From Polytrichum commune (lineage: Eukaryota; Streptophyta; Polytrichopsida; Polytrichales; Polytrichaceae), in the NCBI GenBank assembly GCA_950295325.1, contig OX485806.1, positions 43,216,001 to 43,280,000 of the forward strand: a DNA stretch of 64,000 nucleotides, in the 5' to 3' direction. The position numbers and the translations under genes were made by a program. Below the pieces are notes generated by a model. The model did no database searches and was not told the origin of the DNA. It saw nothing but the letters and a program-made list of their open reading frames with translations. This document shows positions 4,475-58,617 of the stretch, piece after piece. How positions within the stretch are numbered: the first letter of the stretch is position 1; every line of letters begins with the position of its first letter.

Positions 4475-4745
4475 TTTTAATCATCTACTTATGTATTATA
4501 TTACAATTTTCCTATCATTCAAGCATTTCATGGTTTCCAAACTTAATGAGAGCATTTCAAATTTAGGGCCTTTTATTTATTTTAGGAACTATACATTCTA
4601 CGGAAATAGTTTTAATCATCTACTTATGTATTATATTATAATTTTCCTATCATTCAAGCATTTCACGGTTTCCAAACTTAATGAGAGCATTTCAAGTTTA
4701 GGGCCTTTTATTTATTTTAAAAACTATACATTCCACGGAAATAGG
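4475..4745. repeat. two direct copies of a 135-bp unit
   Basis: Two nearly identical 135-bp units start at 4475 and 4610. Each contains TTTAATCATCTACTTATG and ends in a CGGAAATAG stretch. They lie in the AT-rich block that interrupts the transposase relic, so they probably belong to an inserted element. Confidence 0.85.
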
Positions 4746-4854
4746 TCATATTTTCACTATTTTTAGAAGATATTGGAATATTTTGAATATATTCGACGTT
4801 TTTTTAAATATTTTTAAATTTGGTCTATAAAGTTTGTTATTTTTACTTTCTCTC

Positions 4855-4880
4855 CGCTCACTGCTCACATAGGAGTGTCG
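4855..4880 (-). mobile_element. possible transposon terminus with GTGAGC repeats
   Basis: Read on the minus strand this is CCTATGTGAGCAGTGAGCGG, two copies of the 7-bp GTGAGCR motif. The motif marks both ends of the 13.8-kb element at 23434-37215. It sits at the right edge of the block that interrupts the MULE relic. The matching left end was not found. Confidence 0.4.
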
Positions 4881-13100: not shown

Positions 13101-13515
13101 CCAAACTTTTTAGTTTGAAACTCCCTGTCGTGTAAATAGCGATCGTATGTCACTGCAGCTCGAGTACCAACCACCACTAACAAACAACACTAAAATATAG
13201 CAAGGTCACACATAAACAACACACCTCGACATGCCCTCCATAGCTGACTATGAAGTCCCGCCAAGCAGTTAGAACCAATGCCAATCCAAAGGGCATGGAT
13301 AATGAAGAATTGCTCCGCAACCAACTAGTGTGATGAATGTCATTCCAAGGAACTGTAGGCTGGGTGTAGTGTGAGCCCCATCTTTAATCGCCTTTGATGT
13401 TTGGCCATCGGATTCCAGAGAATTAATTCCACCGTCTCATGTTCGATTGCGTTTCTAAATTATAACTCATCATTTTCCATTTGAGCATGCATAATATAGT
13501 GAAAGCCACACATGA

Positions 13516-14067
13516 TCATTGAATACGACTGGTGGAAGCACCAGGTACTAAAGATCCTCGACAGCGAGGACAATTCCATTGTCTAGTTGGTAGAGAAGTC
13601 AAAGGTGGCCTCAAGCATGCCATGTGCCAACCACGTTGACATTGATCACACAAGAGCATAGTAGTCGTTTTTTTTTTCTCACACACAAAACATGGAAAGC
13701 CTTCTAGCATGATGGCCAGTTTAAGATGAATTGTACCTTTAATGGATAGATGACATGGGTCACAATTTTTGGAATGCTCACGACATTCCCGGCCATCCTT
13801 GCCTTCAAACAACAACAAACCACTTGCCCACACCTCCTTCACCCGAAGGATAGTGCGCCCCACCTTGACTTCCCATGTCATGGGTGCCTCACGTTGGAGA
13901 TAGACATAATCCCCTAGTTGAAATCTTTGCAATTGAGGTCGGTAAGCACCACTGGTAATGTGTGCATAAAGCAGCATGTCACGGTGCTGAGCAATGGACA
14001 AATTTTCCATGGCATATGCATGGCCCTCTGGAAAAATTGAGCCCGCTCCTGCAAACACTCTGCCCAA
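13516..14067 (-). pseudogene. gypsy integrase C-terminal region with PHD zinc finger
   Basis: The frame holds the integrase tail (LGDYVYLQREA, then a small beta-barrel-like stretch with VKVGRTILRVKEV) followed at residues about 127-172 by a C4-H-C3 PHD finger. The pairs are C-F-V-C, C-D-Q-C, H-M-A-C and C-P-R-C, with tryptophans in GWHMAC and QWNCPRC. All eight zinc ligands are present. In chromatin proteins PHD fingers commonly read histone H3 tails, so here it may guide integration; that is inference. Clean open frame of 183 codons to a stop. Confidence 0.85.
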
Positions 14068-14810
14068 ATGTTTGGGTCATCCAAATCCACAACATGGCTA
14101 GTTTTTTCCAAATAAAACTCGAGAGTATAGGCTCACGTCCATACAACAACTGATACAGGGTGTAAGATGCCAAAAAGACATGTCTACTAAATCGATAGCC
14201 CATAGCAATCCAGGGCAACATAAGGTTCCATCCCGGTGGCTCCCCCGAAGTAATCCATACCTCCTCAAGCCACGTTTGGTTGTCTGAACAACCCGTTCAA
14301 CTAAGCCATCCGCCTCCGAATGATCCCGAGAGGTGGTGCGGCGATCTATGGATGCCTTAGTGCACAATTCCTCAAAAGCACCGAGAAACTCCCTCCCTTG
14401 GTCCATCAATGCCTCAGCCGATGCTCCAAAACGTGCCAACACACGATCCAAAAAGGCGGTCGTGGCCAATTCTACAGAATTTAGGGGTAGAGCAACAAGT
14501 TCAATCCACTTGCTAAAATGCTTCACCATCACCAACACGTACTTTGCTCCACGTGGTGTGACAACCAATGGTCCCACAAAGTCCAGGGACCAACGGTAGC
14601 CCAATCCCATGATAGGCAAGCGTTGTAACTAAGGTGACAAGGTGTTAAAGCTAGACCTGACCCGATCACAAACTTCACACCTCCCGACATAAGCAACCAC
14701 TTGCTAATACATGCCAGTCCACCAATATTGACCATGTAACATTGAATGTGTCATGTATGTGCCAAAATGATCAAGTTCCTCATGCACTTGTCGCACCAAG
14801 GAGGCCCTCT
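13979..14810 (-). pseudogene. gypsy integrase zinc-binding domain and catalytic core, frameshifted
   Basis: An HHCC-type zinc module (H.ELDHFGTYMTH...CEVCDRV) runs from about 14795 to 14660 and is broken by a TAG at 14704. The catalytic core follows (SLDFVGPL, MDQGREFLGAF, HSEADGLVERVVQ), giving the D, D and E of the DDE triad. Reading then shifts frame near 14250-14200. Together with the PHD region this is one integrase. Confidence 0.85.
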
Positions 14811-15085
14811 GATCCAGCCTAAGGACAATACGCCTTGTCCCATCCGGCCACAATCGAAATAACAAATTGTTCTCCCAACAAAACTCCGTTATTTGATGTC
14901 CAATGCTATCCATTTTCATTGCCGAAGTAGACGAAAAAAAAGGTCCCATGCTGAAGCTTATGTAATACGGGAATATCCTCCCATATATCCGCAATAGCTT
15001 GAGGTCAATCAATCTCATCATCCGAGCCCTGTATCGGAACCTCAACAACTGCATTAGAAAATAAAGTGAGGTAAGTAGCCGCATG

Positions 15086-15652
15086 TCAACATGGAACCGC
15101 CTCTCGATCACAATCTCCATGCCACCTAGACCCAGTCAAGTCTTCATCCGAACGACTCGGATTGTGTAAGAATCCATCTGTATCCATGTTGGTAATCCCT
15201 GGACGGTGCACCACCTCAAAGTCATACTCTTTGAGCAACAAAGCCCACCTAGCGAGCTTATCCAACTCCATGAGCCACCATAACGGTTGATGGTCAGTCA
15301 CCAAAGTAAAGCGTTGACCATAAAGATATGGCCAAAAATGGGCAATAGCCCACACCACCGCCAATGTTTCTCCCTCGTAGGACGAATAATTGGCCTCCGC
15401 CATGTTATTGCTTCGCGAAGCGTAAGCAACAACATACTCCTGGCCAAAGTCATCATTTTGAGTGAGAACTGATCCCAAACCCAATGAATTCCAGTCCGTA
15501 TGCAACGGGAAGGATTTGGAAACATCCGGACGTCGAAGTATTGGAGCCGCACCCAGTTTCTGCTTCAATGTCTCGAATGTTTGTTGATGCTCACAACCCC
15601 AAGTCCAAGGTTGGTTCTTGCTCGTGAGAATGGTAAAAAACTTGGCGATCAA
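15086..15652 (-). pseudogene. gypsy RNase H and tether region
   Basis: Contains the hallmark stretch LHTDWNSLGLGSVLTQ, then YSSYEGETLAVVWAI and FTLVTDHQPLWWL, ending with DGFLHNPSR where active elements usually read DALSR. The first catalytic Asp (TD) is present. Continuous with the RT remnant upstream after a stop near 15671. Confidence 0.85.
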
Positions 15653-15670
15653 GCTAAAGTTCTTGATAAA

Positions 15671-22589: not shown

Positions 22590-22950
22590 TAAAAATTGAA
22601 GCTATCTTGCCAAGTGAGAAGGAAGAGAATCAAACCCTTGCAAGAGCTCTAGATCTCTCTTCAAATGCACATAATGAGTCAAATTATCTCTCATTCCACC
22701 ACGGGAGAATCCAAGAGTGTAAGAAAGGGGAGAAGATCTCAAGATTTATTGCAAAAACATGCAATCTTCACCTCATACAAGCTTTCTCCACACACTCACT
22801 CATAATACTTGATTTGGCAAGAATGCCAAGCCAAGAGGAGGCTCCTCGCTTAGGAGCCTTCCTTTCCACATCTAAGATTCATCCATCCAAATCTAAATGA
22901 ACGAATCTTAACGGATAAGGTGCAGCCGCCAACGCCGCATACCGTGATAA
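22590..22950 (+). mobile_element. truncated copy of the 58.6-kb TIR element
   Basis: About 360 bp match 58740-59070 in the same orientation, with shared words such as ATCTCTCATTCCACCA and AAGAATGCCAAGCCAA, ending in GCCGCATACCGTGA. The left terminal repeat seen at 58618 is absent here. Confidence 0.75.
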
Positions 22951-23078: not shown

Positions 23079-23433
23079 TGTGAGCCCGAAATAGTGCCCA
23101 CATGGGTTGTTGACCTTTAAAAATTGTTAGAATCTAGACTTTGATTTTTTTATCAATTATTATAAAACATAAACAGAGTGTAAACTTAGAGCTGGTGTTA
23201 GAATTAAGTTGAACCTGAAAAGGGTATGGCCTTATGATTGGGAATCGGTTGGGATTAATTGAAAGTAGTTAGGGGGCTCGGGAGTGGAATTTAAGCTACT
23301 AGTTGGGCTTATTGGCCAAGTAAGGCTCTTGAGTGTTTGTTTAAGGCTTGGCCACTAGTCAATTGGGGGTGGGAAGTTAATTGTCCGAATTAGGGAACCG
23401 GGGGGTTAGTATTGGAAGGGGTTCACTGTGCCC
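23079..23433 (+). mobile_element. left part of a family-1 solo LTR, split by a 13.8-kb insertion
   Basis: Starts TGTGAGCCCGAAATAGTGCC, homologous to the starts at 9836 and 61031. It stops at 23433, where the inserted element begins. The right part is 37216-38446 (37216-37225 being the duplicated target). Together they are about 1.6 kb, close to the intact family length. The LTR target duplication is TAGTT (23074-23078) and TAGTC (38447-38451). Confidence 0.8.
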
Positions 23434-23494
23434 CAGGAATGCTATCTTGTGAGCGGTGAGCGGTGAGCAGTGAGCCGTGAGCAGAAAATTTGAA
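23434..23494 (+). repeat. left terminal inverted repeat
   Basis: CAGGAATGCTATCTT is followed by five 7-mers (GTGAGCG, GTGAGCG, GTGAGCA, GTGAGCC, GTGAGCA) and GAAAATTTGAA. Confidence 0.85.
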
Positions 23495-24163
23495 TTTTTA
23501 TTCTTCAAAATTTTCAATGAAATGTATGATATAGACCCTATGACCGTGGAGAATTTATGGTTTCATTCTATAAAATCTGCATATTATTTAACAAAAATTA
23601 ATCAAGGTCCTATTCCCGCGGAGGGATTTTTGTAGTTCACACAAATGAATTTTTTTGAAAAGACCTTGTAAACAAAAAAAACACCTTTGGTACATTAGAA
23701 TCTCCCAACATGCATATCAACATGGTTGAATTTTTTTCAAATGGCCCAATTTAAATAGTCATCATCTAGACATTAAAGTGGTTAATAAAGTACGCATCCA
23801 TTTAAGTACGCATCATGGTTAAGTGCGCAATATTTTTTAACAAAAATCAGGGTTTATATTTTATTGTTTGAATATGTCATGCAGAGTCGTTTGTCGCGAA
23901 TGCATGAATTTTTTATGCTTGACATTAAATGTCAGTTTGTTGACGTTTTGCTAAAATGTCTCAAACGATCATCACAATTCATCATACATATGTCTAGCTT
24001 CCGTTTGAACATCGGAGCAAAACAATTGGTCGTCGATGTCAAGGACAATGTTATGTAGAGCTTCAAAGCCTTTAAAGTTCTTAAAATCCAAGGTTCATAA
24101 AAATAAAAATAGATCATATATTAGAAGGAAATACACGTATTTTTATGTGAAGTGCTTCAATGA

Positions 24164-27100
24164 TCACGAAGACATTTCAACATCATTAGAAGCCTCAATC
24201 CATCCTTCCTCGCTATCACTGTCACTAGATGATTCATCAACTTCTGCAGAAATATGGAAATATTTTTTTACAGGACGGCAACTACTATGTTTTTCTGGAG
24301 AAGGGTCTCGTGATGAAGTAGCTGCATGCGCTTCTGCAACAATCTCAGCATGAAAAAGAAGCTGAAGAGGTCTAATAGGGCTTCTAATCTTACTGATATA
24401 GTGTGAGAGAATGCTTCCATCATACTTCATCATAGAGGACTTCAACGCTTCTTTGCGCCATCTATAAACAAGTAAAAATCAACCATTTAAAAATGTTGGT
24501 AAAAAAAATTGAGGAAATGCTTAAAAATTTGAAGATAGATAGTGTAGACTTACTTACAAGCTCGCTTGGCAACAATCTTCTTCTCTGGCTCATCTGCATT
24601 CTCCAAAGGGCGTTTCTTCTTTGGAGAAGACCTTGTAGCTTTGACTGACTGAACTTCTTCAGCTTGGGGAAGAAGAGGAACCAATACCTCTTTGTATAAG
24701 ATACTGTCATATTCAAATACAATAATATGACGATGAAGACTCTTTGATGCCCGAACAGAAGCACCTGAAATAAACAATACCATTTAGTACTTGGTATAAA
24801 TTAATGACAAAACATATCAAAAGAAAAGTATAGGGAAAAAATAATACCTGTGGACGCTGTGAGGTCCATGACAATGTCATCTTCAACCGTGCAGAGATCA
24901 ATAAGAGCCATGAGTAAATTAGAAGACTTCTTCCGTGCACCTCTAAATGGCATTCTATTCTCCGACTGAACAGTTAGAGAATCAACATCAATGAGGTTTG
25001 TGAGATGTCATCTGATGACAACTTGATGCCTTGTGCAAGAAGTTCATGACGGTCACAAAACACAAAATTGGACATTGGAACCTCTTCATCCGGATTTTCC
25101 TTTCTAACAAAGCATTTCACTATGAAACACTTGTGCGTACGGGATGGATGATCCGGGACAGTCAAAGGAAGGCCGTTAATTGCAAACCACTTGGATTCCT
25201 CCTGAAAATTTGCCCAATCCGCCCAAGATAAAAGCTCATTGGATATAAACTTTGAATCAGGATAAAATACAATGAGGGCACCATCATCTTGAAGAAACTG
25301 CATGGCAAACTCAAAATGCCTCTTGATCCATATGGATTCCACTTTTCCATCTATACCCTCTGGTTTAGTCTTTGGATGACGGTTCCAAGGTGGAATTTCA
25401 CCAGCAATACCAAGTCCAGGAACAGGTAAATCCTCTGGAACATCAAAGATAACAAGATCAACTACATTGTCAGCTTCACAACCCGCATAGCTTCGAATCT
25501 TTTTACCTTGATGATCTTTAATCCATGCCTTCATACGCCTCCAAATCTTTGGCTCATCACTCTCAGTAACATCATCAAACAAGTCCAAAATACCTGAAGG
25601 ACTATCATTGATGATCTCTATCCCACTCTCTACATCATCCAACTGCGAGCATGGGATAGTATACACCGTTTGTGAAGGACAAGGGGCAACGGAAAGAGGC
25701 ACCTGAGAAACCAACTCTTTGTTCCGTGCCGCAACCTCCTTCTTCAATTTTATTTCCTCTTCCTCGCCTTTCTTCTTTTCTTCTTTTTCTTTCAAACGAG
25801 TTTCAACCTTTGCTTTCTTGTCAGCCAATTTCTTCCTTTGTTTGTCAGATATTGAGTTGTCATCACCCACCTCCGATGCATCTTCTTCAATATGCACCAA
25901 ATTCTCAGCCTTTAATTGTTGCATCATATTGTCACAACTAGCCTTCAAGGCTCTCTCCTCTCCAGGACATCTTTCATTTTCCTTTAACTCAAGATACCAA
26001 GGACATTGAAGAAGATGAGGTCTTCCAAAATATTTTTTCTAATATTCTGAAAAAATACATTCACTACTAGAAACTTCCACCCACTTGTCAATGGCCCCCT
26101 TAATCACCAACTCCCTCCAGAAATATCTCAAGATAGCTCTCTTCATAGCATTCTCAGTACCAGCTTGGACAAGAAATAACTCCTTCGTATAAGTGCCATC
26201 CTTTGAAAAAAATTCTTTGAAAGCCTTCCCCCACAAAGTAATAGAATAGGACTCAATCCAAGTTCCAATATCGTCCACTGGGTTGGGCAAGTCCTCGGTC
26301 TTCAATATGATAGCATCTTCCTCCATAATTTTCTCAAGTCGATTTACTGCCTCTTCCTCTAACTGCAACAATGTACAATTATTCAGCAAAACAAATTCAA
26401 TTCAATTCATCTAATTCTCAAATTTTAGATATAACTTAAACTTCATAAAAAATACAAATATACGGTTCAAAATAACATACCCCAGCCCAGAAGGCAGCTT
26501 GATCTATCCAAATCCGAAGAACTGAATCAGAAGCGGGTGAGGGAGGAAAGTTGTATTCTTTACGATTCTCCTTACTCATATTCCACCACCTTAACCATCT
26601 CTCTTTGTGCTTCAAAGAAACCTTTGTTGTTGCAATAAGTTGTAGTTTCTCTGAAGTCATCACAGGCTTGATTTGAAAGATATCAAAGTGACGAATAATC
26701 TACTTTCAAAAATACAATTAGATTAGTAAAAATTTGCACTACAAAAAAATACATAATATAGAAAACATTTAATGACATATATGCAAAATTTACGACATTA
26801 ATTGTTTAGGTTTAACCCTCTCAAACCCGTAATCAAGCCAACCATACAAAATAACATCACAAAAACCAGTGAAGGCCTCATAATTTAACTAATCACTTAC
26901 CTCAGCCACATAGAACTTCTTCTAAAACAAAGCACACAATAACCATGTAAAGGGCAGTAAGAAGATTATTATTTCATAAATATTTATTATAAACGTCCCA
27001 TCTAACTTCTCTCGGATCCGAGACCATGCAAACCAAGTTGAATAAAATTACAAAAAACAAAAAAATCTATGATAGATGGTGGAGCACATACCTCTCTTAT

Positions 27101-28303
27101 GAAACCCTCTCCATTTGCTAGATTGGCAATTGCGAGGTACCGAGATAGGACTGTAGAGAGGGAGGTCTTCTTTGCCTCAACAGCCTTAGTTGCGGCGGCC
27201 TGTAGTTCAAACGGACTTCCAATTCTATCTTCGTCTGTATCGGTGACAAGACTGTCTTTGTACCACCTGATTGCCTCTTCTTGTGCTGCGGAGATTTTTC
27301 GCTACAAACAAAGATAACAAATTCAGACAAGTTCTCATTTAAACTTGTAGGTGACAAATTGAAAGTAGACAAGTAATTTACCTCGTATAAACAATTGATG
27401 AATGCATCGTGAGTAAGATGATACCACTTCCGTCTCTTCCCACCGTGACGATTCCACTCAAGAATACTAGCTTGAAGGTCTTCATCACTGACAAGTCCTT
27501 TAAGTTGATCAAAGTCTAGCAATCCCAATTGCTGGACACGTTTGACATTGTGCGTGAAGTGTTGGGCGACGTGATCAACCTAGTTTTTCCTGGATTGCAT
27601 ACACCTCAACTAAGAATACAAATGATACACGATGCATTTACTAACATGAGTATTTAAATAATAAATAATAAGAAATTCGAAATTCAAATAACATATTTTG
27701 AAAAACTTACTTGTTCCAATCTGTCATCGCATGCAATAGCATGTTACAATTTTCTGAAGATACGTTGATGAAAACAGAACGTACGGGAGCATGAAAAAAT
27801 GCATCATCTTTATGGAGGGCACTAATGACATCCATCCATGCAATATGACGGTGATTCCCGTCCCATACGTAGAAAAACCGATTAGAATACTTTCCTAATG
27901 CTGGATTTTTTGCCAATCGAGCTTCAAACTCCAAATCCTCCTTGTGCCACAAATCCGACCATGAAGCCCGATGAGTCTCCGTGACGGTTGCTTCTTCCAT
28001 TCTGAAACTCCTTAAGGATAGATAGAAGCAGGTTGATGCCCGCCTATACCCACGAGAGAACTCTGCCTTCAACTTTTGAATGTTAGTCTTCAAGGGCTCT
28101 CTAACATCCTTCATAGGAATCATCCTGCACAAGGGCACGTCAAGCTCACAGTTTGGAGATTCAAGTGCACTTTGAATTGCATCATGTGAATTGCCTCTCA
28201 CGGCTCTCCGTAATTTCTCCTCAATCTCTGCTAAACCACCATCTTCAACCTCCATGTTGACCTTTGGGCTCTCGCTTTCACCCTCTGCAAATTCGTGAGT
28301 CAT
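24164..28303 (-). pseudogene. ParB-like domain fused to degenerate beta-class DNA methyltransferase, 8 exons
   Basis: Exons on the minus strand: 28303-27711, 27579-27382, 27301-27092, 26921-26901 (21 nt), 26699-26481, 26362-24848, 24764-24554 and 24461-24164, with GT-AG borders. Exon 1 has a ParB/sulfiredoxin-like pattern: CRMIPMKDVREPLKTNIQKL, then YVWDGNHRHIA (DGNHR at residues 148-152). Exon 6 has a Glu/Lys coiled stretch, then VVDLVIFDVPEDLP in the place of catalytic motif IV (D/N-PP-Y/F/W), then a strand-rich core. RKKSSNLLMALI followed by DIVMDLTASTG matches motifs X and I, and HRHIIVFEYD follows in exon 7 as motif II. The order IV then X-I-II is the beta class. A basic SSPKKKRP stretch is nuclear-signal-like. 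The catalytic DPPY and FxGxG are both altered, so activity is doubtful. Lesions: phase mismatch at the exon 1/2 junction, TAG at 26039-26041, and a one-base shift near 25000. The 5' end is uncertain: an acceptor-like CAG precedes the ATG, so an upstream exon may exist. Confidence 0.75.
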
Positions 28304-28321
28304 CTGCGCATATGGATAAGA

Positions 28322-30186
28322 GAATTGAGAAATAAGAGCATTTTCAAAAAAAGAAAATGAAATAGTACCCGTCCACCCTTGTTTCGGATCCGAGACAACA
28401 AATTTAACGCACAAAATTGGAGTGAGTCCCTTAACGAATTGAGAAATAAAGCTTTTTTGAAAAAAAACTACAACCAAGCAATGAGGACAAGAGCATTTTC
28501 AAAAAAAGAAAATGAAATAGTACCCGTCCACCCTTGTTTCGGATCCGAGACAACAAATTTAACGCACAAAATTGGAGTGAGTCCCTTAACGAATTGAGAA
28601 ATAAAGCATTTTTGAAAAAAAAACTACAACCAAGCAATGAGTACAAGAGCATTTTCAAAAAAAATAAAATGAAATAGTAGCCGTCCACCCTTGTCTCGGA
28701 TCCGAGACAACCCATTTAATGTACAATCCTAGAGGAAAACTGACGGGTTTCTCTGATGTACATGAAGCCCTGCCCGCTTAGAACCCAAGGCTATGAGAAC
28801 AAGCGCATTTTCAAAATAAACAAAACAAATAGTACCCGTCCACCCTTGTTTCGGATCCGAGACAACAAATTTAACGCACAAAATTGGAGTGAGTCCCTTA
28901 ACGAATTGAGAAATAAAGCATTTTCGAAAAAAAAAACTACAACCAAGCAATGAGGACAAGAGCATTTTCAAAAAAATAAAATGATATAGTATCCGTCCAC
29001 CCTTGTTTCGGATCCGAGACAACAAATTTAACGCACAAAATTGGAGTGAGTCCCTTAACGAATTGAGAAATAAAGCATTTTCGAAAAAAAAAACTACAAC
29101 CAAGCAATGAGGACAAGAGCATTTTCAAAAAAATAAAATGATATAGTATCCGTCCACCCTTGTTTCGGATCCGAGACAACAAATTTAACGCACAAAATTG
29201 GAGTGAGTCCCTTAACGAATTGAGAAATAAAGCATTTTTGAAAAAAAAACTACAACCAAGCAATGAGTACAAGAGCATTTTCAAAAAAATAAAATGATAT
29301 AGTATCCGTCCACCCTTGTTTTGGATCCGAGACAACAAATTTAACGCACAAAATTGGAGTGAGTCCCTTAACAAATTGAGAAATAAAGCATTTTCGAAAA
29401 AAAAACTACAACCAAGCAATGAGGGCAAGAGCATTTTCAAAAAAAATAAAATGAAATAGTAGCCGTCCACCCTTGTCTCGGATCCGAGACAACCCATTTA
29501 ATGTACAATCCTAGAGGAAAACTGACGGGTTTCTCTGATGTACATGAAGCCCTGCCCGCTTAGAACCCAAGGCTATGAGAACAAGCGCATTTTCAAAATA
29601 AACAAAACAAATAGTACCCGTCCACCCTTGTTTCGGATCCGAGACAACAAATTTAACGCACAAAATTGGAGTGAGTCCCTTAACGAATTGAGAAATAAAG
29701 CATTTTCGAAAAAAAAAACTACAACCAAGCAATGAGGACAAGAGCATTTTCAAAAAAATAAAATGATATAGTATCCGTCCACCCTTGTTTCGGATCCGAG
29801 ACAACAAATTTAACGCACAAAATTGGAGTGAGTCCCTTAACGAATTGAGAAATAAAGCATTTTCGAAAAAAAAAACTACAACCAAGCAATGAGGACAAGA
29901 GCATTTTCAAAAAAATAAAATGATATAGTATCCGTCCACCCTTGTTTCGGATCCGAGACAACAAATTTAACGCACAAAATTGGAGTGAGTCCCTTAACGA
30001 ATTGAGAAATAAAGCATTTTTGAAAAAAAAAACTACAACCAAACAATGAGGACAAGAGCAATTTCAAAAAACAAAAAAATGAAATAGTAGCCGTCCACCC
30101 TTGTCTCGGATCCGAGACAACCCATTTAATGCACAATCCTAGAGGAAAACTGACGGGTTTCTCTGATGTACATGAAGCCCTGCTAC
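28322..30186. repeat. 12-unit, ~156-bp tandem array with a palindrome per unit
   Basis: Units carry TTCGGATCCGAGAC at 28382 and recur at steps of 155-159 bp (28381, 28536, 28693, 28848, 29005, 29162, 29318, 29475, 29630, 29787, 29944, 30103). Two unit types exist. Type A is followed by an ATTTAACGCACAAAATTGG stretch. Type B (28691, 29473, 30101) has the full palindrome TTGTCTCGGATCCGAGACAA followed by CATTTAATG and a CCTAGAGG stretch. Blocks repeat at about 782 bp, a higher-order structure. The array abuts the first confident exon of the methyltransferase gene, so it may be its promoter or an intron. ORFs in it are repeat artefacts. Confidence 0.95.
28691..28710. repeat. 20-bp perfect palindrome in array unit 3
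   Basis: TTGTCTCGGATCCGAGACAA. Identical copies lie at 29473-29492 and 30101-30120. Most other units carry the one-sided variant with TTTCGG in place of TCTCGG. Confidence 0.95.
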
Positions 30187-30880
30187 TTGACAATTATCTT
30201 TCAACACTCTGGTATCATTTTCTGCTAAAGCTGGAGAGCGATCTTTGACATGTCAAATAACCTAAGCCAAAAGAATCAACTCTTCAGGAAATGATTTTTC
30301 ATAATCTGATTTAGAATTGACCTATATCTGATTTAGAATAACCTCATTTTTTGCTTGATTTGGTACCTTGAATGTTTGGGGGTAAAACATTTACCAGAAT
30401 CTAATCTCAAGCAAGCCATGCGTTTAAGCACCAGGATGACAATTATATGTCTCTCTAAGTTTGAGATTAATCTCCAACAATTTCATTTGACCACCAAACT
30501 TCATTTTAATGGTGAATTTAAGAAACTGATTCAAGGCATTTGAGTTGAGCATACAAGTGGAGAGGAAGACAATACCCCGACAATGCAGTGAACTTATCAA
30601 CAACTTGTGCACGCTAATTGCAAGTTTTCACAAAACATGCAATGTTTTTTTCCAATTCAAAACACAATGTGAAGTTGCAATTTGACCCCACATAGAGACA
30701 CCAAACCCTAAGCTCCATCCCCTTCAACTCTGCAGTGCAGATTACGTTTCTCCTGTGCTGACAGATCAAAAACACACACATATTATTATTTCTTTTTAAG
30801 CAGCTCCGGGAGCACTCTGGACTTCAAGCTCCAAGTCAGGGCTTGGGATGAAATATGGCCATGGATGAACCCCGATTTAG
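30187..30880. other. unassigned DNA between array and rDNA fragment
   Basis: AT-rich sequence with no convincing ORF. It may include further captured or intronic DNA. Confidence 0.4.
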
Positions 30881-30900
30881 TTGTCTTGGATCCGAGACAA
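30881..30900. repeat. palindrome with one mismatch beside the rDNA junction
   Basis: TTGTCTTGGATCCGAGACAA, one base off the perfect 20-bp form. It ends 12 bases before 26S rRNA similarity starts. A half copy (TTCCGAGACAAG) lies directly at the junction. Confidence 0.85.
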
Positions 30901-30912
30901 CCATTCCGAGAC

Positions 30913-30985
30913 AAGCATATCACTAAGCGAAGGAGAAGAAACTAACCAGGATTTCCCTAGTAACGGCGAGCGGAAAGTGCCCATG
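30913..30985 (+). pseudogene. 26S rRNA 5'-region fragment
   Basis: Contains AAGCATATCACTAAGCGAAG and AAGAAACTAACCAGGATTTC, then TAGTAACGGCGAGCGG, the conserved start region of nuclear large-subunit rRNA. A few substitutions are visible and similarity fades after the AACGGCGAGCG block. No adjoining 5.8S or upstream 26S sequence is present. Confidence 0.85.
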
Positions 30986-31105
30986 CAATGGGAGAACTCT
31001 AGTTTAGATTGAGTTATCTATGCATTACTAAAATCAAAAGCCCACACCCTAGACATAACGTTACCTTGTTTTAGGTATTTTATTAGTTGCGAAACCTGTC
31101 GAAGA

Positions 31106-31131
31106 GGGTTTAGGGTTTAGGGTTTAGGGTT
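31106..31131 (+). repeat. interstitial plant-type telomere repeat
   Basis: Three consecutive TTTAGGG copies with partial copies at each side, between the two rDNA fragments. Confidence 0.9.
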
Positions 31132-31852
31132 GATTTAATAGCGAGACATACGGCCTGCCATGTGGAAACTATATGTAGCACATTTCAAATGCATAAGCAC
31201 TCTTTCTGTAGCTGCCACTCAGGCTTTCATAATGATTATTAGCATTTTTGAGACTGCAGTAAGCTCTAAGAACTCGCATAAATTTCGTTAGTGTCACCAA
31301 TGGCGCAATCTCCGCCTTCAAGTTTTGCAGTGGCTAGACTAGAGGAATTTCCTGCGGTTTCAAGATTCACATAGTTTGGAGTGACACATTAAGTTCTTTT
31401 TGACCGCATGTACTTAATCCATATACAACTAAATTCCTCTCTTGAAAGATTGCCAGGGAATTGATTCACATAAATAGAAATGGACATTACAAGTAAATTA
31501 TGAGACTCTGGAGATGTTCTTGTACTTGGATGAGGCAGCTTGTCACTACACTGAGCTATAACTATTTAAAGTTGTATATATCAAAGAGCTAACCGTGAAG
31601 CTCAGAACAGATTGAAGAAAATTTGGGTATTTTATCCGATTCTAACCTATACGAGTTCATCAAGGCAATAGATATTGAAGTTACCACCAAAATTCAAGGC
31701 AACTGGTACACCTTCAAAAACACAGTACACTATTCATGGTTTTTAGTGTCACTTACTATTTAGAGTTACACAGTGCTGTAAAAAAATTACTGTTAGCGTA
31801 AGTTTTTACCAAGTTAAAAATGTTTTTTGAAATTTAAAAAAAAAACCATTTT

Positions 31853-32284
31853 CTAAAATGTCCAACCAACCAATTCGACCTTTGTCAGTGAAAGAATGAA
31901 GATGTGAAAGAATATTTGTAGCCTTGCGTAACTCCAAATAGTAACTGATAGCAAATACCACAAATGGTGCAGCTGGGTAACTCCTATTCCAACGAGCACA
32001 GGGAACTTCTGGAAATTTATCGCCACATGTAGAAACATGTCGTAATAAATTGCCAAAGCTTCAGCACAATGACGCTAAACATATAAGTAGTGAACTAAGA
32101 ATTTAGCTCTGTGATAGTTGGAACATTAAATTGTCGATCAGCGGAGTACTGCTCAGTGCAATAGAATTTCAAGATGCAATTTCCTCTTACCTGGATAATT
32201 AAGAGCTGTCAATGCCTCATGACACTCAGCTTCACCCTCAGCATCTAATACATCCTCAGCCTCTTCTTCACCGGAACAATGAGA
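31853..32284 (-). pseudogene. possible captured gene fragment, unidentified
   Basis: Read on the minus strand, 32284-32193 is an acidic open stretch (GEEEAEDVLDAEGEAECHEA) ending in CCAG followed by a GTAAGAG donor. Further on, 32060-31860 reads AEALAIYYDMFLHVAINFQK and, in a neighbouring frame, APFVVFAISYYLELRKATNI. The exon-like borders suggest fragments of a spliced gene. I do not recognise the protein. Confidence 0.3.
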
Positions 32285-32302
32285 ATACCTGTTGGGACCC
32301 GA

Positions 32303-32332
32303 AAGCCTTGTCTCGGATCCGAGACAAGGCTT
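32303..32332. repeat. 30-bp perfect palindrome at an rDNA duplication junction
   Basis: Each arm is AAGCCTTGTCTCGGA followed by its reverse complement. This is the longest member of the GGATCC-centred family in the window. An identical copy lies at 32449-32478. Confidence 0.95.
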
Positions 32333-32448
32333 CATTGAGGCGCAAGGAACCTGACAGGTGGGATCCCCCGGTAACAAAGGGGAGCACCATCGACCGACCC
32401 TGATCTTCTGTGAAAGGTTTGAGTGTGAGCATACCTGTTGGGACCCGA

Positions 32449-32478
32449 AAGCCTTGTCTCGGATCCGAGACAAGGCTT
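32449..32478. repeat. 30-bp perfect palindrome, second copy
   Basis: Same sequence and same position within the 146-bp unit as the copy at 32303-32332. Confidence 0.95.
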
Positions 32479-32707
32479 CATTGAGGCGCAAGGAACCTGA
32501 CAGGTGGGATCCCCCGGTAAGAAAGGGGAGCACCATCGACCGACCCTGATATTCTGTGAAAGGTTTGAGTGTGAGCATACCTGTTGGGACCCGACAGATG
32601 GTGAACTATGCCTTAGCAGGGCGAAGCCAGAGGAAACTCTGGTGGAGGCTCGTAGCGATACGGACGTGCAAATCGTTCGTCAGACTTGGGTATAGGGGCG
32701 AAAGACT

Positions 32708-32718
<11 letters not shown>

Positions 32719-32738
<20 letters not shown>

Positions 32739-33162
32739 GCGGGTCTTCACAGCAAAGGCAGTGCGGCCGTGATGTGCTCGTTGCCGTCTGAAGCATGAGA
32801 AGGATACGCATAAGGAGGTCTGTCAGAGTGTATATTATGGTGGCTGCAGGGAGCCGAACCATCTCCTTAGGAGCCATTCCAAGTGCCACATCTGCCATAT
32901 CATTGATTATCTGTTTCATCAGGAGCCCCTGCAATGCTAGGGATTGTTCCGCTAACGGTGCGCGTGCAAGGTATTTCCGTGATTTGTAGACAAGTGCCCA
33001 TCCCAGGGCTGTCAAATTACCTATCGCACATCGAGGTATGGGAGAATCCAAAGGGTGCGACAAAATACTATTGTTCTCCCGACCGAATTTTATCGACTGA
33101 CCTTGGGTGTAACAAACTAATTGCACCAACTCCCGGCGGTAGTGTCCTGTCCTTCCTTCCAT
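32719..33162 (-). CDS. unidentified 147-codon ORF, possible captured exon
   Basis: Begins at the end of the rDNA fragment and runs toward 33162. It includes LVYKSRKYLARAPLAEQSLA and PAATIIYTLTDLLMRILLML. Composition is protein-like, with alternating helical and hydrophobic stretches, but I recognise no family. Base composition is more GC-rich than the flanks, in line with a captured fragment. Confidence 0.3.
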
Positions 33163-33221
33163 TTTTCTTTCAATCTAATTCTCCACCCCAGAACATCCGT
33201 CTGAGCAGCTAAATTTGAACG

Positions 33222-34023
33222 TTGGAGACCTGTCGATGGTTGGATGTGGCCGACATAGCCCTCTCTGACGACAAATTTACCAAGCACACAAACATATGCA
33301 ACTGCAAATCACAAGTAGGTGAACGAAAAATGTTGAGGAAGTCCACATACATGTTACTTAATCCACGGAGCCTACTAGCACGAGTACCGCCCACATCGTC
33401 AAAAACAGGACTTCTTCGAGCTCTCTCGAGAAAATTTCTATCGAAGCAGCGCGTGCTGGAGCGAAGAAACCAAGACGATGATGAATCTCGCCAGCCTGCA
33501 GCTCATCATGTGGGGATCGTAGTATGCTGGAGATGCCTACAAAACGAGACACTGTGACTTCCGACTACGATCTGTACAAGAGTAGATTCATGCGTCCATC
33601 GTGAATGTGAAATTTGCATGATGGGGAAGATAATTTTGCAGCCTGCCTCAAAGGTAATTCTCCGTGCGTAGGATCAGCCGGCTACTCCAATTTTCTGTGC
33701 ATGTAATGCAGCTGACGACGGAAGGAGCTCCAAGGCCTAATTGCAACAAGAACCAACCGACGCAAGCTTTGGATGAGCTCATCCCTGGGACAGCAAGAGT
33801 GAAGAAGTGGATTGATGCAGCGGAACATCAACTCTGCGCGGATTATCCGTCGTATGAGGACCGAATTAGTCGGCAAGGCTCCAATCCCGAGACAGAGGGA
33901 GCCAAACATTGGAATAACGTCTCTGATCGCGATTGCAAGCAATCGTGTGGCTCCACCAAGAGAGTTTCTGTCCATTTTTTTTCCGGTTTGGGTGATCTTG
34001 TATGCTTTCTAATAATGGAATAA
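33222..34023 (+). other. GC-richer stretch with unidentified ORFs
   Basis: Two plus-strand open frames (33222-33557 and 33664-34023) lie in DNA less AT-rich than its neighbours. The second includes DELIPGTARVKKWIDAAEHQ. No domain recognised. It may be more captured gene sequence. Confidence 0.3.
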
Positions 34024-37000
34024 ATGTGTCTCAGATGTGTTGTAACAAAAAGAAATGAAGAAATGTTAGGGTGAGTTTCCATGTAGGATGCTCGCCCACG
34101 AGATTCTATCGGGAATAAAGACAAACCTGCCCAAATATATGTAGAGGGAATATGGTGGGGTAGCATTCATATGTGCCAACTAGTTACTCCCATCTTCTCA
34201 AATCCGGACCCATCTACGAACTTCCTCCTCCCAATTACCAAGGTCATAGTTCTAGACCTACATCAGTTCTTTTGAGTCTTGAGCTTGACCTTAATCCTTT
34301 GATGACAGGTATGTGTAGATTAAATCTTCTTTAGTGGACACATGGAAGTGTAGCGAACCGTGTCCACAACCCTTCATGTTCTAGCGGACTGCCATAATGT
34401 GGTTTGGATGATTGCTTATGCTTAACTACATGCAAACACCTCCAACCCACTATTATCTAAAAACTAGTGGGTGAGTGACCTACATGGAAACTCACCTTTA
34501 TCCCGGGATGTTGGACCCCTTGGTCATCGCTTAGCAAAATGGAGTCACCATAATCACATATCATAAGGTCAATGGGAGGAATTGCTCAAGACGGTGAGGG
34601 TTGTCCGGAGAAATCGGCAGAGGTCCTAAGAAGAAAAATCATTGACCTTTACTTGAGACGATGTGATTTTATTCTCATGGATCCTCATAGTTGAAATCAT
34701 GGGCTTCTGGATACGAGTTCTTAAGCTACACCATGGTAATCAACCGTGATCAGAGCAGTGTAAAAACCTCCTCCTCAAATGATTCATGAGAAAGAAATGC
34801 CATGGAATGTGCATTTCCTCAAGTGGCACAAATGCGTTTTGACTGCGTTAATGGCAGCTTATTGAGCACAATAATGTCACAAATACGACACTTTCTCTCA
34901 GTGGAAGCTTAGAACGTCACAAAGTTGACAAACGAAGATGACATTAAATCCACTGGATTTCAGTAATTTGGGGTGTTGTGTGAGATAAATTGAGGAGTAA
35001 AAATAGAAGAAGCATTGATTTGGGCTCTCTTGAATAAAGCGGTTGCGGTTGAATTCTGGAGGACACGTTAAATTGTCAATTTTAATGATAAATGCCACAT
35101 ATGTGCTCTTGACATATATTGAGATTGTGGCACATCTAGTCATATATAGGAAAGGCTCTTCAAGACCGTTGGACTAGCACCATGAGATTTTTGGGAAGAA
35201 AATCCCCGCCTCATGTAGCAAATCCTCTTAAATTTGGCAGCACGCCACTTGCACATTGTGGACCATTTTAATTGAAAGAAATGACCTCACCTTGAATAAT
35301 ATTAGGTGGGATGCTAGAAAGGTTATGGAAAGTATAGAAAGGTTATTTTATGAGATCTACTTGACTATACTATAGTTGCTTTCAAAAAGCCTCTCAAAGG
35401 CTCGAAGAGGAATTCCGTAGCTATCTACGATGATGTTGTCACCAAATTTGACACTTGGGGGGCATCAACAACCTCTTCTATCATATGTCGAATACTAGGA
35501 TTATGTAAGATAGTCGTGCACCTAATGTTGGCTTAGTTGGCCATTCTTAGGTTGTTCACAGTCCTTGACAACTTTGTGATTCACCAGTTATTGCCAAGCT
35601 AATTACCCCGGCTCTCTTATTTTGGGCTCTGGTGGACTTTTATGTTTTTGGCAATATAATTATTGAACATATTATGTTTTTCTGTAATAAATAAATAAAT
35701 CACATGGCTAATGTATAACTGCATTTAAGTTTATTTGGACAAACCCCTTTGTCCAAAATTCATAAGGGATGTACAATTCTAGGGACAAAAACACATAATG
35801 ACAACAACAACCACAACTTGAATGTTTGTATTCCATGTTCACCAACCACCATAGTTGTGTAGTTTTGCAATTTAATATACATCATGTTGGCAGTTAGAAT
35901 TGTTCGGAATTCATGCATCCATATATACTTCAATCCTAGTTTGTGTGTGCTGAAAGGTTTATTATCTTTACCATCATATACCATGGTCATTACATTGCAT
36001 ATCTAGAGGTTAAAACTTCTAGAACCTTTTCCAACTCCCAATCGATTTTCCATTGTTATGTATACATGAAATATCAAAAGAAAATGTCATTATTAGCTTC
36101 TCTCTAGCTAGCTTTGTGTTTGTGTTTGTTAGGCAAATTGAAAACACATTAGTCAAATTCGTCGAACTTGTCTTTATACCCTTTCATTGACGAAGTTTTA
36201 TGTCTCAAGTGTTTCAATCAATCATCATATTGTAAATTGCTACAATATCAACTCTTTGAATTTAGACTAAAATATTACATGACCTTTGTTTGATGTACCT
36301 CTATCAACCTCAACTTGAGTCCACCAAAGATGGGCTCATTCTCTCAACAAAAAAGATATTATTTCTTTCTTTCTTTCTTTTGATTTGGTCAATGGAGGTA
36401 TTGCAAGCATGTGTACTACATCTTTCGCTATTTCTGCAAGATGGATTACAAAGTGGACACTTTCATGCACGCACCCAGCTTTAGCTACAATGAGGTTATG
36501 CATATTTTAGAACTTGCTAAAGTTGCTGAACCACTTGTGTAGTTCCTTGACTTCCTTCATGCTTCAAGGTGCTTGGTAGTGATCTTTTTAGTTTGTGAAT
36601 CCCATCTTCAAATAGCGGAATTGATTTGAATTGCCTTTGATTTGTATTTGAATCTGCACATTATTAAAAGATCATTTTTATGAAACCATGAATTTTCCAA
36701 TCTTGGATACAAAAGGATTGCCATGAAAATGACTATTTTTCTCTATTTTTTATTCTCAATTGTGACTATAGAATATTCTTGTCTCGGATCCGAAAGGACA
36801 TGGACAAAAAAAATTCATTTTTTTTTATTTGTTTTCTTTTTTTTGAGTTTTCGTGGATAATACTTAAAATTTTAATTTACATTCTTATTCCCTTATTTTA
36901 TGTTCCCTATTATTTTGGAAGTTTTTTTTCTAAATTTTTTTTTTTCGTTTTCTTCCGTTTCTTTTTATGGATGGTTTTTTCAAAAGTTTATAATTTCTTC

Positions 37001-37154
37001 CACTCCACGGTTATAGGCACCATCCACAGTTAAACGTACCATCTACTTCTAGTCATATTTGTAAAGAAACTATACGAAGAGTCCTACTCGGTGTAAGAAT
37101 TAAGTCAAATATTCTGATTTTTTTTTAAAAAAATCAAAATTTGTTTTCAAAAAT
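34024..37154. other. right part of the 13.8-kb element, no genes recognised
   Basis: AT-rich with no supported coding region. It includes a (TTTC)n run near 36360 and a partial palindrome TTGTCTCGGATCCGA near 36779. About 150 bp before the right TIR there is similarity to the left subterminal region (CCTATRACCGTGGAG-like words at 23540 and, inverted, at about 37010). Confidence 0.5.
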
Positions 37155-37215
37155 TTCAAATTTTCTGCTCACCGCTCGCCGCTCACTGCTCACCGCTCAC
37201 AAGATAGCGTCGCTG
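37155..37215 (-). repeat. right terminal inverted repeat
   Basis: Read inward on the minus strand it is CAGCGACGCTATCTT, five 7-mers (GTGAGCG, GTGAGCA, GTGAGCG, GCGAGCG, GTGAGCA), then GAAAATTTGAA. It is collinear with the left TIR with seven mismatches. Confidence 0.85.
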
Positions 37216-38446
37216 CACTGTGCCCTAGCAATTCCAGGGGTTCTGGAAATGAAGCGGCGGTGGAAGGAGCGAGGCAGCGGATTCAAGGACACACACAGGG
37301 GACACGAGGATGAGCGAGGAAAGAGAGGAAAGAGAATGCGGGAAGCTGCAAGGGAAGAAAGGGTGAATAGATGCTGCTGGACTGAGATGGATGCGGCTGG
37401 GAAGAAAAGATGAAGATTCAGGGGACGCTTGAGGTAGAGGCCACTGGCCGTGGCCACAATCTGGTAGAATCAGGCCCAATCGGGCCACAGAACGTCTGGT
37501 CACCAGGGAATGCGAGAGCAACCGAGCAATCTAACAAGGGGGGCTAATTGAGAAGAGTGTGAATGCCGCAACCATTTTCTGATTGAGAGCTACCAGGAAT
37601 GCGCTCTCACCGATTTGGATTGCATAATTCTAAGTCAGGGGGCTTGGAAGGGAAGTAAGGGTGATTGACAATGGGTGCAAAGCGGCAGTGGAATCTTGGG
37701 GGCCGACATTGCCTGATGACTGAATGTTAGGGGTGGAAGGATTCACTCTGATGCTAGGGCCGAACGGCGACATCAGAATTTAATCAAACTCTCAAGCCAG
37801 TTGGCGGAATGCAAAAGAAGGATGAGGCTGCAAGCCACCTCAACAGGTGCAGGCTTGTAGACAGCCGAGGAGGGGTCACAGAAGCCGTTGGGTTGGAGGA
37901 CAGCCAAAGACCGGTACTGACGGGCGTTGACGGGCGACCAACTAGAGGGAACAACGCAGAATCTTTTCGCAGGTGGCTGGACTGCCGGCAAGGTTAAGGG
38001 GTTGTAGGCAAGGACCAAGGGTTAGGGATCTTATGCTAGAAGGGTTGATTAAGGGGAGAAAGGGAAGTGCCTCAACAAGGTGACATTAAGCCTTGGTTAG
38101 TGGTTGTAAGGGGGAGATTAGGGGGAGAGAGAGGATGAGTGTTGGCCACCCGGTATTGGGGTGATTCCCGTATGAGGGGAAGTTAGATGTAGGGAGATGA
38201 TGAGTGTTTTAGTAGTTTGAACGGAATATAGTGCGGGTGGGAGATTAACTAGTGGCAGGAAGCCATAGGATGAAAGCATTGATAAATGCTTAAATCTTGA
38301 TTTATGTAATAAAGTTGGGTGTCCCATGAACAATGGTAATTCTAGGTGACAAGTGGTTGGGAAAGAAGTGGAGTGCAAAGTACATGTGAGCCCGGGGCTC
38401 TCACCCGGACTAGGACGCAACCAAGGGTGGGGGTTTAGGGCTGACA
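37216..38446 (+). mobile_element. right part of the split family-1 solo LTR
   Basis: Resumes with CACTGTGCCCTAGCAATTCC and ends GGGTTTAGGGCTGACA. The 3' end matches those at 12493 and, inverted, at 51353, including CTCACCCGGACTAGGACGCA. ORFs here are incidental. Confidence 0.8.
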
Positions 38447-40290: not shown

Positions 40291-42405
40291 AGTATCTTAG
40301 TACCTCTCTCTTACAAGTTGATCAAGGGTTCATGTAACTGAATATTTATTTTATAAGTTATCAAGTCACATGTTTACTCTTTTGCCAAGTAGCTAAATGA
40401 CCAAGTATCAAGTTCATTCTTCTTTCATTTTGGTAAGTAGCCAAGTAACAATTTTTTTAAAGTCTCTCAAATCGCACTTAACTTCCTTCAAGTAGCCAAA
40501 TAACTCTTTTCCATTGGCCAATATCTCTCTTAAGTAATCTTCTTAGGGTATCCAAGTAAATGTCTTCAATCTAACCAAACAGCCTTCTACAAGTGTCCAA
40601 ATAATCAAGTCACATTTTACAAATGTAAAAAGTAACCGTCTTCAATGTAGCCAAATAGCCAACTTCCATTTAGCCAAGTAGCCATCTTCCATGTAGCCAA
40701 GTAACCTTTTACAAGTGGCCAAGTAATAGTCTTCAATGTAGCCAAGTAATCTTTTTGGATTATTTCCAATAATCTTGTTTCTATCTATTTTTAATTATTA
40801 TTCTCTACGGCAATCTACCACATATAATGGAATATAATACATTATGTCTATTTATAGTCTATTTATAGTATATCTCAGTCTTGGATATACTTAGGTACAA
40901 TTTATTTTTAACAACTCCCATTTATATCAGCCCCAATTATAATTAAATACAATTTATTTTTAGCACTCTCACAATAGTTGTAGTGCAGTCTTTAGTATGA
41001 TTGTATTGCAGTCTATTTTTAGTGCAACCTCTTAATGATATTAAAGCATCAACTATAACATCCACAACCTATATTTGAGCATAAATATTATAATAATAGA
41101 TTTTGGCAAAAATTTACGTGTCAATTTATCATATTGTAAATCATATCATAACACTTCTTATGATTGCATTACTTGTCACATTTAAATTTCCTTAGGCAAT
41201 CAATCATATTTGTAAAGTATAGAAGATATAAGTATAAAAAAATATTATGATAAAAATGATAATAGAGAGAAGTAGTTATATGATGAACATATTTTGACTT
41301 ATGTTAAGACTTTAATAACTTTTTTAGACTCATGACATCCATTCATTTAAAAAAATGTACAACTCAATTGTCAAAGTTCTTGCATGCAAACCATATGTTC
41401 CGATGTTTTTAATTCCTCCTTCCCTCATAGATCTTATCAATAATCCCAAGTATCCAATTCCACTCATAAACTTTGTAATATGATTACTCTCACCTCATGT
41501 GAGTTTCTATATTTTCTCACTTACACAAATGCCTTTCATTACTATAATTCCGTCATCATATGTTGGAGTCCATAAGCCACTCCTTACATAATTGCTTCTC
41601 AATTTCTATGTCAAGTTTTTTAAATCAATTTGCTACATAAACTACCTCTTTTGAACTTATGTATCTATTTCACCTCATGTGAGTTGCTATAGAACATCTC
41701 AAGTTGCATTCACAATCTCTCAACTTAACTATGTCTAAGCTAAAATTTTACTTCGCCTCTCCTTTGAATAACTATGAAGAAGGTTGAGCATGAAGCTTGT
41801 ATATTCCAAAATGATAAAGATACAAAGGACCTAGTTCTTGTGTAGCGTATCAACGTGAATAAGGTAAGGTATTCTAATTCTCTTAACTCTATATATAGTG
41901 GAAAGAAACGCCTAACATGTGACTCTCTCCTATATCATTATATATCCTATTTCCCTAAGAAGTTGAAGATAGCTCGTCTGGATATCTTTAAAATGAGCAC
42001 ATATAATTCACATCTTCTATTACAATCAAAATGTGGTAGATTGCATTTTAGAATCTACATATATATTATCTAGGTATGAGAGTTTTCCTAAGGCTAACCA
42101 AGAAGTCATTCTTGGACCCTGCTTACTTCCACCTCCGATTGCCTTGCTTATGTGGCCTAGCTCAGTATTAATCATCCTGGGGCTCCCAAATTTCAAGTGG
42201 CTTGCTACGTGGCTTACTAATCTATCAATAATCTCACTAATGTTTACTTGCCTCCTACATAGTTTATTAGTCTAAATTGGCTTAATAAAGGTGTGTTTAA
42301 ATTTTATGTGGTTACTAAATTATCTTTACTAATTTGGTAACCGGCCCATAGGCCTCTTTAAACCTAATCACATAATCCTCCTTGAGTGGCGACTATGGTG
42401 ATTTT
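40240..42405 (+). repeat. left arm of giant inverted repeat 1
   Basis: Matches the reverse complement of 43015-45010. Inner markers are TTTGGTAACCGGCCCATAGG (left) against CGGACCGGTTACCAAATTAG (right). The outer half is a degenerate tandem of AAGTAGCCAAGTAACC-type words, mirrored by GGTTACTTGAAGAC-type words in the right arm. Confidence 0.85.
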
Positions 42406-43014
42406 GACTTAGCGTTGTTAATCGACACCGTGGTGGTAGTCCAATAACCGTATTTTTTGCCCGATACTCTTGGGGTATTCGAGTTGTTGTCTCGCCTGAT
42501 GTATGGCTAAGATGGTCTCATACCCACCACGACTAATTGATGTCTGAGCTTCCTTTTTTATTTTTGGTGGTTATGTATGTTTTTGTCGTTTGATTTGTGA
42601 CCTTCAACCGTCAGCTTTAGACCTTGTTGAAAATTCATTGAAAATGTGTAATTTCTCTCAGGCGGTAATCTAGCACACATGTTCCTAAGGCAATATGATG
42701 TCGTGTCCTACAAAATTGATCAACTTAAAGGAACATGCACAAAAAAACTCTTACAGGTTTTGGTTGGCGATGAAGAGACTGCGCCAAAAACAACAACATA
42801 GGTGGTTAGAATTGCTAAGAACGCGCATCCATCAATCTATGTGGAATTTTCAAAGATGAATTAGCTCGTCATGGGGGGGGGGCATTATCATCGGACCGAA
42901 CAACCGTTCCTTTCTCAACAATTAATGAACGCTCATTCGTAAGGTCCACTGTTGCTAACGCCTTTGTCTCCATGAGATTGTATGTTGTTCACCACAATCT
43001 CAACGACGAAAGGG
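42406..43014. other. spacer of giant inverted repeat 1
   Basis: About 610 bp without a convincing ORF. Includes a G9 run near 42878. Confidence 0.6.
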
Positions 43015-44046
43015 GTGAATCACCAAAATTGCCACATGAGAAGGATTATGTAATGAGGTTTACGAGGGCCAACGGACCGGTTACCAAATTAGTGAAGATA
43101 GTTAAATTAGTAACTACGTAAAGTTAAATGGCCAAAATTAGTAAGCCATTTAGATTAGTAGGTTATGTAAGAGGCAAGTAAACATTAGTAGCATTATTAG
43201 AGAAATTAGTAAGTCACATAGCAAGCCACTTAGGATTAGTGGGCTTCATGGTGTAAAACACTCACTAGGCCATATAGGTGAGGAAAATGAAGGTGGAAGT
43301 AATTAAGGGCCAAGAAATGACTTCTTGGTTAGCCTTAAGAATCCTCCCTTACCTATATATTACATATGTAGATTTTAGGCTACAATCTTCCATGTAAAAT
43401 TTTGAATGTAAAAGAAGATGACGATTATATTAGCTATTTCTGAGGATGTCCGGAAGAGCTATCTTCATTTTCTTAGAAAAATTAAAGATATGATAATTAA
43501 GAGGACGGCACATGTTAGACACCTCCTCTCAATATATATGTATATAGAGTTAGGATTAGACTTAGAACACCTTACCTTTTTTACGTCGATAAGCTACACA
43601 AGAGCTAGGTCCTTTGTATCTTTACCATTTTGGAATACAAGAGCTTCAAACTCACACCTTCATCTTAGTTATTCAAGATAGAGGCAAAGTAAAATTTTAG
43701 CTTAGACATACTCAAGTTGAGCGATTGTAATTGAGACTTGAGATGATCTATAGCCACTCACATGAGGTGAGATAGTTGAATGACAAAACGATAGCAACTC
43801 ACATGAGATGAGATAGTTGTAGAAAATTCTTATAATCTCTTACATGATGTGAGATAGTTGTGAGAGATTTTATAATGACTCACATGAGGTGAACTTAGAC
43901 AATTGAGGAAGCAAAATCATGATGAAATATACGACATAAAAGAGTGAGTGAACTTGAGAAATTGAGGCATGAGTGATTAACCATTGAGAAATGAGTAGTT
44001 CAAGATGTGACGGAATTATTGTTGACACACAAGACAAATTATAAAG

Positions 44047-58600: not shown

Positions 58601-58617
58601 AATGGAACATGGATTGA

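Follow-up and report, generated by a model that had tools for sequence, protein, structure and literature searches.

A transposon of 13,782 bp that carries an intron-bearing, methylase-related gene lies at 23434-37215 in a stretch of 64,000 nucleotides from Polytrichum commune (assembly GCA_950295325.1, contig OX485806.1, positions 43,216,001 to 43,280,000 of the forward strand). This whole stretch is called the window below, and all positions are counted within it. A first-pass annotation, made from the letters of the window, had described at 24164..28303 a eukaryotic fusion of a ParB-like part and a DNA methyltransferase, spliced into eight exons after an old capture by a plant transposon. 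That a transposon carries the gene was borne out by inverted repeats and a target-site duplication on its two sides:

23424..23433, target-site duplication, left copy CACTGTGCCC, an exact 10-bp match to the right copy, directly outside the inverted repeats
23434..23499, plus strand, left terminal inverted repeat, an arm of 66 nt that contains GTGAGC heptads and is 88% complementary to the right arm
37150..37215, minus strand, right terminal inverted repeat, 66-nt arm
37216..37225, target-site duplication, right copy, an exact 10-bp match to the left copy

Long terminal inverted repeats (TIRs) with a target duplication of 8-11 bp are the hallmark of Mutator-like elements. The element has both, in its 66-bp arms and exact 10-bp duplication, which point to a Mutator-like DNA transposon with long TIRs. 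An inspection by eye, with no Pfam scan of its frames, recognized no transposase inside it. At 31105-31131 the element contains an AGGGTTT run (TTTAGGG-type), TTTAGGG being the plant telomere type. This run and the spliced genes suggest the green lineage, and the plant origin supposed in the first-pass annotation is likely.

The gene lies on the minus strand, and a model of eight exons fits 28303-24164 with GT/AG borders and matching phases. The exons are listed here together with the four motifs named in the first-pass annotation, all of which were found at the places it gave:

27711..28303, minus strand, exon 1 (gene model and relatives), N-terminal part with the DGNHR box, ParB-like by motif alone; start codon uncertain
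27848-27862, minus strand, DGNHR, in exon 1
27382..27604, minus strand, exon 2 (gene model), acceptor uncertain; in-frame TAG at 27580-27582
27092..27301, minus strand, exon 3 (gene model)
26901..26921, minus strand, exon 4 (gene model), an uncertain 21-bp microexon
26481..26699, minus strand, exon 5 (gene model), covered by relative P0023
24848..26362, minus strand, exon 6, helical region, charged linker and methylase domain (DVPE, motif I); broken by an in-frame TAG (26039-26041) and, near 25000, by a frameshift
within 25427-25450, minus strand, DVPE, motif IV-like, in exon 6
24849-24869, minus strand, MDLTAST, motif I-like; the splice between exons 6 and 7 falls in the last G of DLTASTG
24554..24764, minus strand, exon 7 (gene model), with a motif II-like stretch
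24706-24726, minus strand, IIVFEYD, motif II-like, in exon 7
24164..24461, minus strand, exon 8 (gene model), acidic and serine-rich tail up to the stop

The modeled product has 1,097 codons, with the frameshift bridged by one X, and the gene with its eight phase-consistent exons is real. Its splicing into eight exons stands as far as the borders, the phases and two junctions are concerned: relatives P0023 (covering exon 5 and most of exon 6) and P0001 back the exon 5-6 and 6-7 borders, respectively, with frames that read through the intron. The acceptor of exon 2, exon 4 and the start are uncertain, the last because the frame of exon 1 is open upstream to 28498 and relative P0003 begins further upstream. 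Since it contains two in-frame TAG codons and a frameshift, the gene copy at 24164..28303 is, in its present state, a pseudogene.

The family to which it belongs is multicopy and kept as open frames. A search with exon 1 gave 13 relatives, of which 12 have 59-97% identity across 58% or more of the query and the 13th matches over 19% only; the relatives recovered consist of frames that take in one or two exons, open frames exist among them, and clusters of 18 (P0002), 25 (P0015) and 27 (P0020) member sequences were seen. Relatives down to 37% identity fit the old capture supposed earlier, which may on that account be upheld in its age. Searches of viral contigs by tblastn gave no relative of exon 1 or the methylase exon and no exact palindrome (described below), with the limit that records near the genome of the window may be left out. 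Among phages, 17 records match the methylase piece by tblastn (best E 0.02), none covering 80% of it, and the three that were opened are stand-alone methylase genes of about 250 codons having no ParB part. Exon 1 gave 49 phage records at E up to 10, with the lowest E being 0.5 among the 20 listed; the one opened, a frame of 872 residues, was taken by eye for an unrelated phage protein. The plasmid search gave a single record at E 4.

A beta-class methylase domain of the N6-adenine/N4-cytosine (N6A/N4C) kind in an intron-bearing eukaryotic gene, as first proposed, was recovered by two approaches. The joined piece of exons 6 and 7, with X at the frameshift, is matched by Pfam PF01555 (N6_N4_Mtase) at E=1.3e-6 and 29.0 bits, the cut-off of this family being 26.7 bits. 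Structure prediction, which had been suggested as a check, gave the C-terminal domain a Rossmann-type, beta-class methylase fold like those of CcrM and M1.HpyAVI, in a model of low overall confidence (m009abdc2370f). By Pfam match and predicted fold the methylase part is beyond chance. The motifs follow one another in the order IV, X/I, II, as judged by eye. Searches of PDB sequences with the methylase piece and A4 gave nothing relevant.

Both catalytic motifs are altered, in agreement with the first-pass annotation. The consensus of catalytic motif IV is (D/N/S)PP(Y/F/W), which is found neither in the window gene, where the tetrapeptide is DVPE, nor in any of the nine relatives covering the site; these have DVPE or DIPE (9/9), and the second proline and the aromatic residue are gone in every one of the nine rows. 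Motif I has the consensus D-x-F-x-G-x-G, which was not found either, its phenylalanine being absent in all eight covering rows (of 10). The variants in these eight rows are DLTASTG (four), DITASTG, DLTTTTG, DLTAGTG (P0020) and DLTASTC (one each), the last belonging to P0015, whose frame runs into the intron at that point. Because DVPE or DIPE is kept in all nine covering relatives, the domain is predicted to be a reader and not a writer of DNA, and the earlier suggestion of binding without methylating would, judged from these alignments, be a fair reading.

The N-terminal half fared differently. By eye, the box YVWDGNHRHIA of exon 1 resembles the ParB/Srx box (IVDGFHRY), and this DGNHR/VDGFHR box is also the stretch that hhalign aligned against YbdM and against an 11-member ParB/Srx alignment; against P1 ParB, another stretch was aligned. 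The first-pass annotation had proposed profile-profile comparison for the ParB part, and hhalign of exon 1 against ParB/Srx gave a probability of 0.3-0.6%, with scores as high in 22 of 100 column shuffles. With a ParB/Srx hidden Markov model (HMM) in HMMER, the 13 exon-1 proteins reached at most 2.9 bits and the best of 2,600 shuffles 7.8 bits; as there were 200 shuffles per real protein, higher maxima among the shuffles are expected and the comparison shows a lack of signal only. In the reverse direction, ParB proteins reached at most -0.5 bits with the exon-1 HMM. Pfam found a ParB family in none of the 13 exon-1 members, a PHROG ParB family was matched weakly by three of them (best E 0.14), and searches of NCBIfam and PDB sequences gave no significant ParB similarity. 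The structure model of exon 1 is too poor to use (predicted local distance difference test, pLDDT, 41.5), and its best Foldseek match (E 0.74) is an unrelated protein. The ParB part thus exceeds chance in none of the tests run, and the ParB domain first assigned here, seen by eye in the DGNHR box, failed with Pfam, hhalign, HMMER and PHROGs. A ParB identity may be kept as a lead, helped only by a published parallel considered below.

Beside the gene lies a repeated palindrome of 20 bp, TTGTCTCGGATCCGAGACAA, with the structure TTGTC-TCGGATCCGA-GACAA. It has 17 matches with up to three mismatches in the 64 kb and none in 100 shuffles, a count to be read in the knowledge that the palindrome was examined after being noticed, so that the enrichment tests were not blind. 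All 17 fall within the element 23434-37215, and five are exact. Their places, with a ribosomal RNA fragment that adjoins one of them, are:

28334..30136, tandem array of 11.5 copies of a 157-bp unit, which starts 31 bp upstream of the modeled ATG and contains 12 of the 17 palindromes
27007..27026, palindrome with two mismatches, in the intron that separates exon 3 from exon 4
30881..30900, solitary palindrome with one mismatch (core)
32308..32327, exact palindrome within a 30-bp perfect palindrome of a 146-bp repeat
32454..32473, exact palindrome in the second 146-bp repeat, with a perfect dyad of 30 bp
36779..36798, solitary palindrome with three mismatches, near the right end of the element
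32454..32729, plus strand, fragment of a eukaryotic large subunit (LSU) rRNA gene (Rfam RF02543, 226.7 bits), its matched start overlapping the second 146-bp repeat

Three of the 12 array palindromes are exact, and in the other nine a T in one arm spoils the symmetry. As array copies are not independent, contexts are the useful count. The window contains 17 exact copies of the core TCGGATCCGA, in five contexts, and the element accounts for 15 of these, in four contexts; among 71 different palindromes of 10 bp, the runner-up by contexts has three copies in three, and another has five copies, all in the array. The inverted repeats themselves contain no match to the palindrome. LSU rRNA fragments were seen in the element at 32280-32729 and, by eye, at about 30940, the first being joined to the palindrome-bearing 146-bp tandem repeat.

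Two further copies of the core lie at the left edge of the window (171-190 and 301-320), with arms AGGCC/GGCCT that are again symmetric. The left edge, 1-4880, is an element-like stretch cut by the edge, with transposase-like frames at 1626-3574 (by eye, one internal stop), in which no MULE transposase or other Pfam match above the cut-off was found. A GCTCAC stretch like that of the TIRs occurs there at 4849-4866 with two mismatches (stretch 4849-4871). This left-edge stretch is probably a related element.

Elsewhere in the window, two related stretches of a retroelement lie at 13330-15670 and 59286-60506, the first of which has Pfam matches to integrase (rve) and RNase H. Two foldback-like structures, large and made of nested inverted repeats, occupy 45357-48888 and 41665-43775. 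A diverged repeat pair (22607-22950 and 58749-59069) has one member near the left flank of the element, and a further inverted pair is found at 58617-58699 and 58989-59071.

The architecture of a ParB-methylase accessory protein of a transposon is already known, and what is new here is TTGTCTCGGATCCGAGACAA as a candidate address. In the brown alga Ectocarpus, the transposon Sola1-1_Ec32 encodes a ParB + N4/N6 methylase accessory protein of 1104 residues, according to the part of PMC12477816 used here, which also suggests that proteins of this kind may bind to, and mark, the element that encodes them and cites green and red algal transposon proteins of like kind. Compared by description, the two proteins are alike in length (1104 and about 1,097 residues), in the methylase domain, in a ParB-like part (here by motif alone) and in residing in a large DNA transposon; they differ in the long TIRs and 10-bp duplication, the lack of a recognized transposase, the DVPE motif IV and the palindrome array of the present element. 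The C-terminal domain resembles the beta-class N6A enzymes CcrM and M1.HpyAVI in predicted fold and, by eye, in motif order, but its DPPY-type motif has become DVPE/DIPE, its motif I is altered, and it sits within a protein of about 1,097 residues. Likewise, the DGNHR box followed by a VPV or LPV stretch recalls, by eye, the VDGFHR box of ParB/Srx-type proteins like IbrB and YbdM, although the profile similarity is not significant. In the literature covered, neither a change to DVPE nor a palindrome address nor a Mutator-like host turned up for proteins of this kind; no search was directed by name at the first two, and most subscription papers lay outside the coverage. A term look-up in PMC6446971 (on Mutator elements) found none of methyltransferase, ParB and methylase.

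The nearest working analogue is provided by the VANC anti-silencing proteins of VANDAL elements. Partial texts of the sources state that VANC21 binds a 9-base motif concentrated in tandem repeats that lie in introns and upstream regions of its own transposon (PMC5735166) and that VANC proteins cause loss of methylation (PMC5735166, PMC10398659). The likeness consists in a transposon-encoded protein and a short motif concentrated in tandem repeats within noncoding parts of its own element, whereas the present element has a long palindrome as its candidate motif and a protein derived from a methylase.

We propose that the product of the element's gene was an accessory protein, about 1,097 residues long, with a C-terminal domain that descends from a beta-class N6A/N4C DNA methyltransferase. 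Its catalytic tetrapeptide became D-V/I-P-E, with methyl transfer most likely lost and the domain serving as a DNA-reading module. The protein would most likely bind TTGTC-TCGGATCCGA-GACAA as a dimer, at candidate sites in the array just upstream of the gene, in the intron and scattered over the element. Such marking of its own element might relieve host silencing or regulate transcription and transposition of the element, in the manner of VANC. A self-addressing DNA binder is the best reading because, in this window, a methylase-derived gene with its catalytic motif lost lies beside an array of an element-confined palindrome. As a whole, with its VANC-like anti-silencing role, the proposal is tentative, its chances being somewhat below even.

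Several observations weigh against it. PF01555 is without a match at E up to 1 in seven of the 10 relatives, with a best E of 8.3e-4 among the other three, and the structure model as a whole is of poor quality (mean pLDDT 54.9, predicted template modeling score 0.42). DVPE is no proof of inactivity, nine of the 12 array sites are asymmetric at one arm position, the palindromes could serve a transposase or host factor instead, and the gene copy is a pseudogene.

TnpA of En/Spm is a transposition helper, and the protein could act in the same way, bridging palindromes along the element or repressing its own promoter via the array, with silencing not its target. The array just upstream of the gene and the further sites far along the element would suit this, but the absence of palindromes from the inverted repeats and the concentration of sites at one place, with few elsewhere, make it unlikely. 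A complex that spreads along the element after its N-terminal part loads at the palindrome, as with ParB and parS, is very improbable: parS sites are indeed palindromic and the DGNHR and VDGFHR boxes are the stretch brought together in two of the alignments, yet the hhalign probabilities and shuffles, the different stretch aligned with P1 ParB and the HMM scores below those of shuffles all speak against it.

A further alternative is an active enzyme that binds its own element and writes N4-methylcytosine or N6-methyladenine there despite the altered motif IV. The palindrome has at its center GGATCC, a known kind of methylase target, the C-terminal fold is that of a beta-class DNA methylase, and motif I of P0020 (DLTAGTG) is closer to the classical form. 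The excerpted text of PMC12477816 proposes such self-methylation for the Ectocarpus protein. Self-methylation is nevertheless fairly improbable given the missing proline and aromatic residue of motif IV (9/9) and the missing phenylalanine of motif I (8/8 covering rows). Pack-MULEs may contain fragments such as LSU rRNA, and the gene might be a passenger caught by an element of this kind, with palindromes unrelated to it. The LSU rRNA fragment, the lack of a transposase seen by eye in frames not scanned with Pfam and the broken gene copy are consistent with a passenger, but the family is multicopy and kept as open frames and, in the part of PMC12477816 used here, a comparable gene is carried by a brown-algal transposon, so that a passenger origin is decidedly improbable.

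As to the methylase-derived reader, that its catalytic motif is lost in a conserved manner speaks for the reading of DNA marks over their writing. Binding and marking of the own element is only suggested in the available text of PMC12477816, and the 20-bp palindrome, as a concrete candidate address, makes that suggestion directly testable. A long-TIR lineage may, in a more far-reaching and doubtful version, have turned a bacterial-type DNA methyltransferase into a catalytically dead reader of its own palindrome; related elements would keep the core TCGGATCCGA and alter the arms symmetrically, and reader and address would co-evolve independently of VANC.
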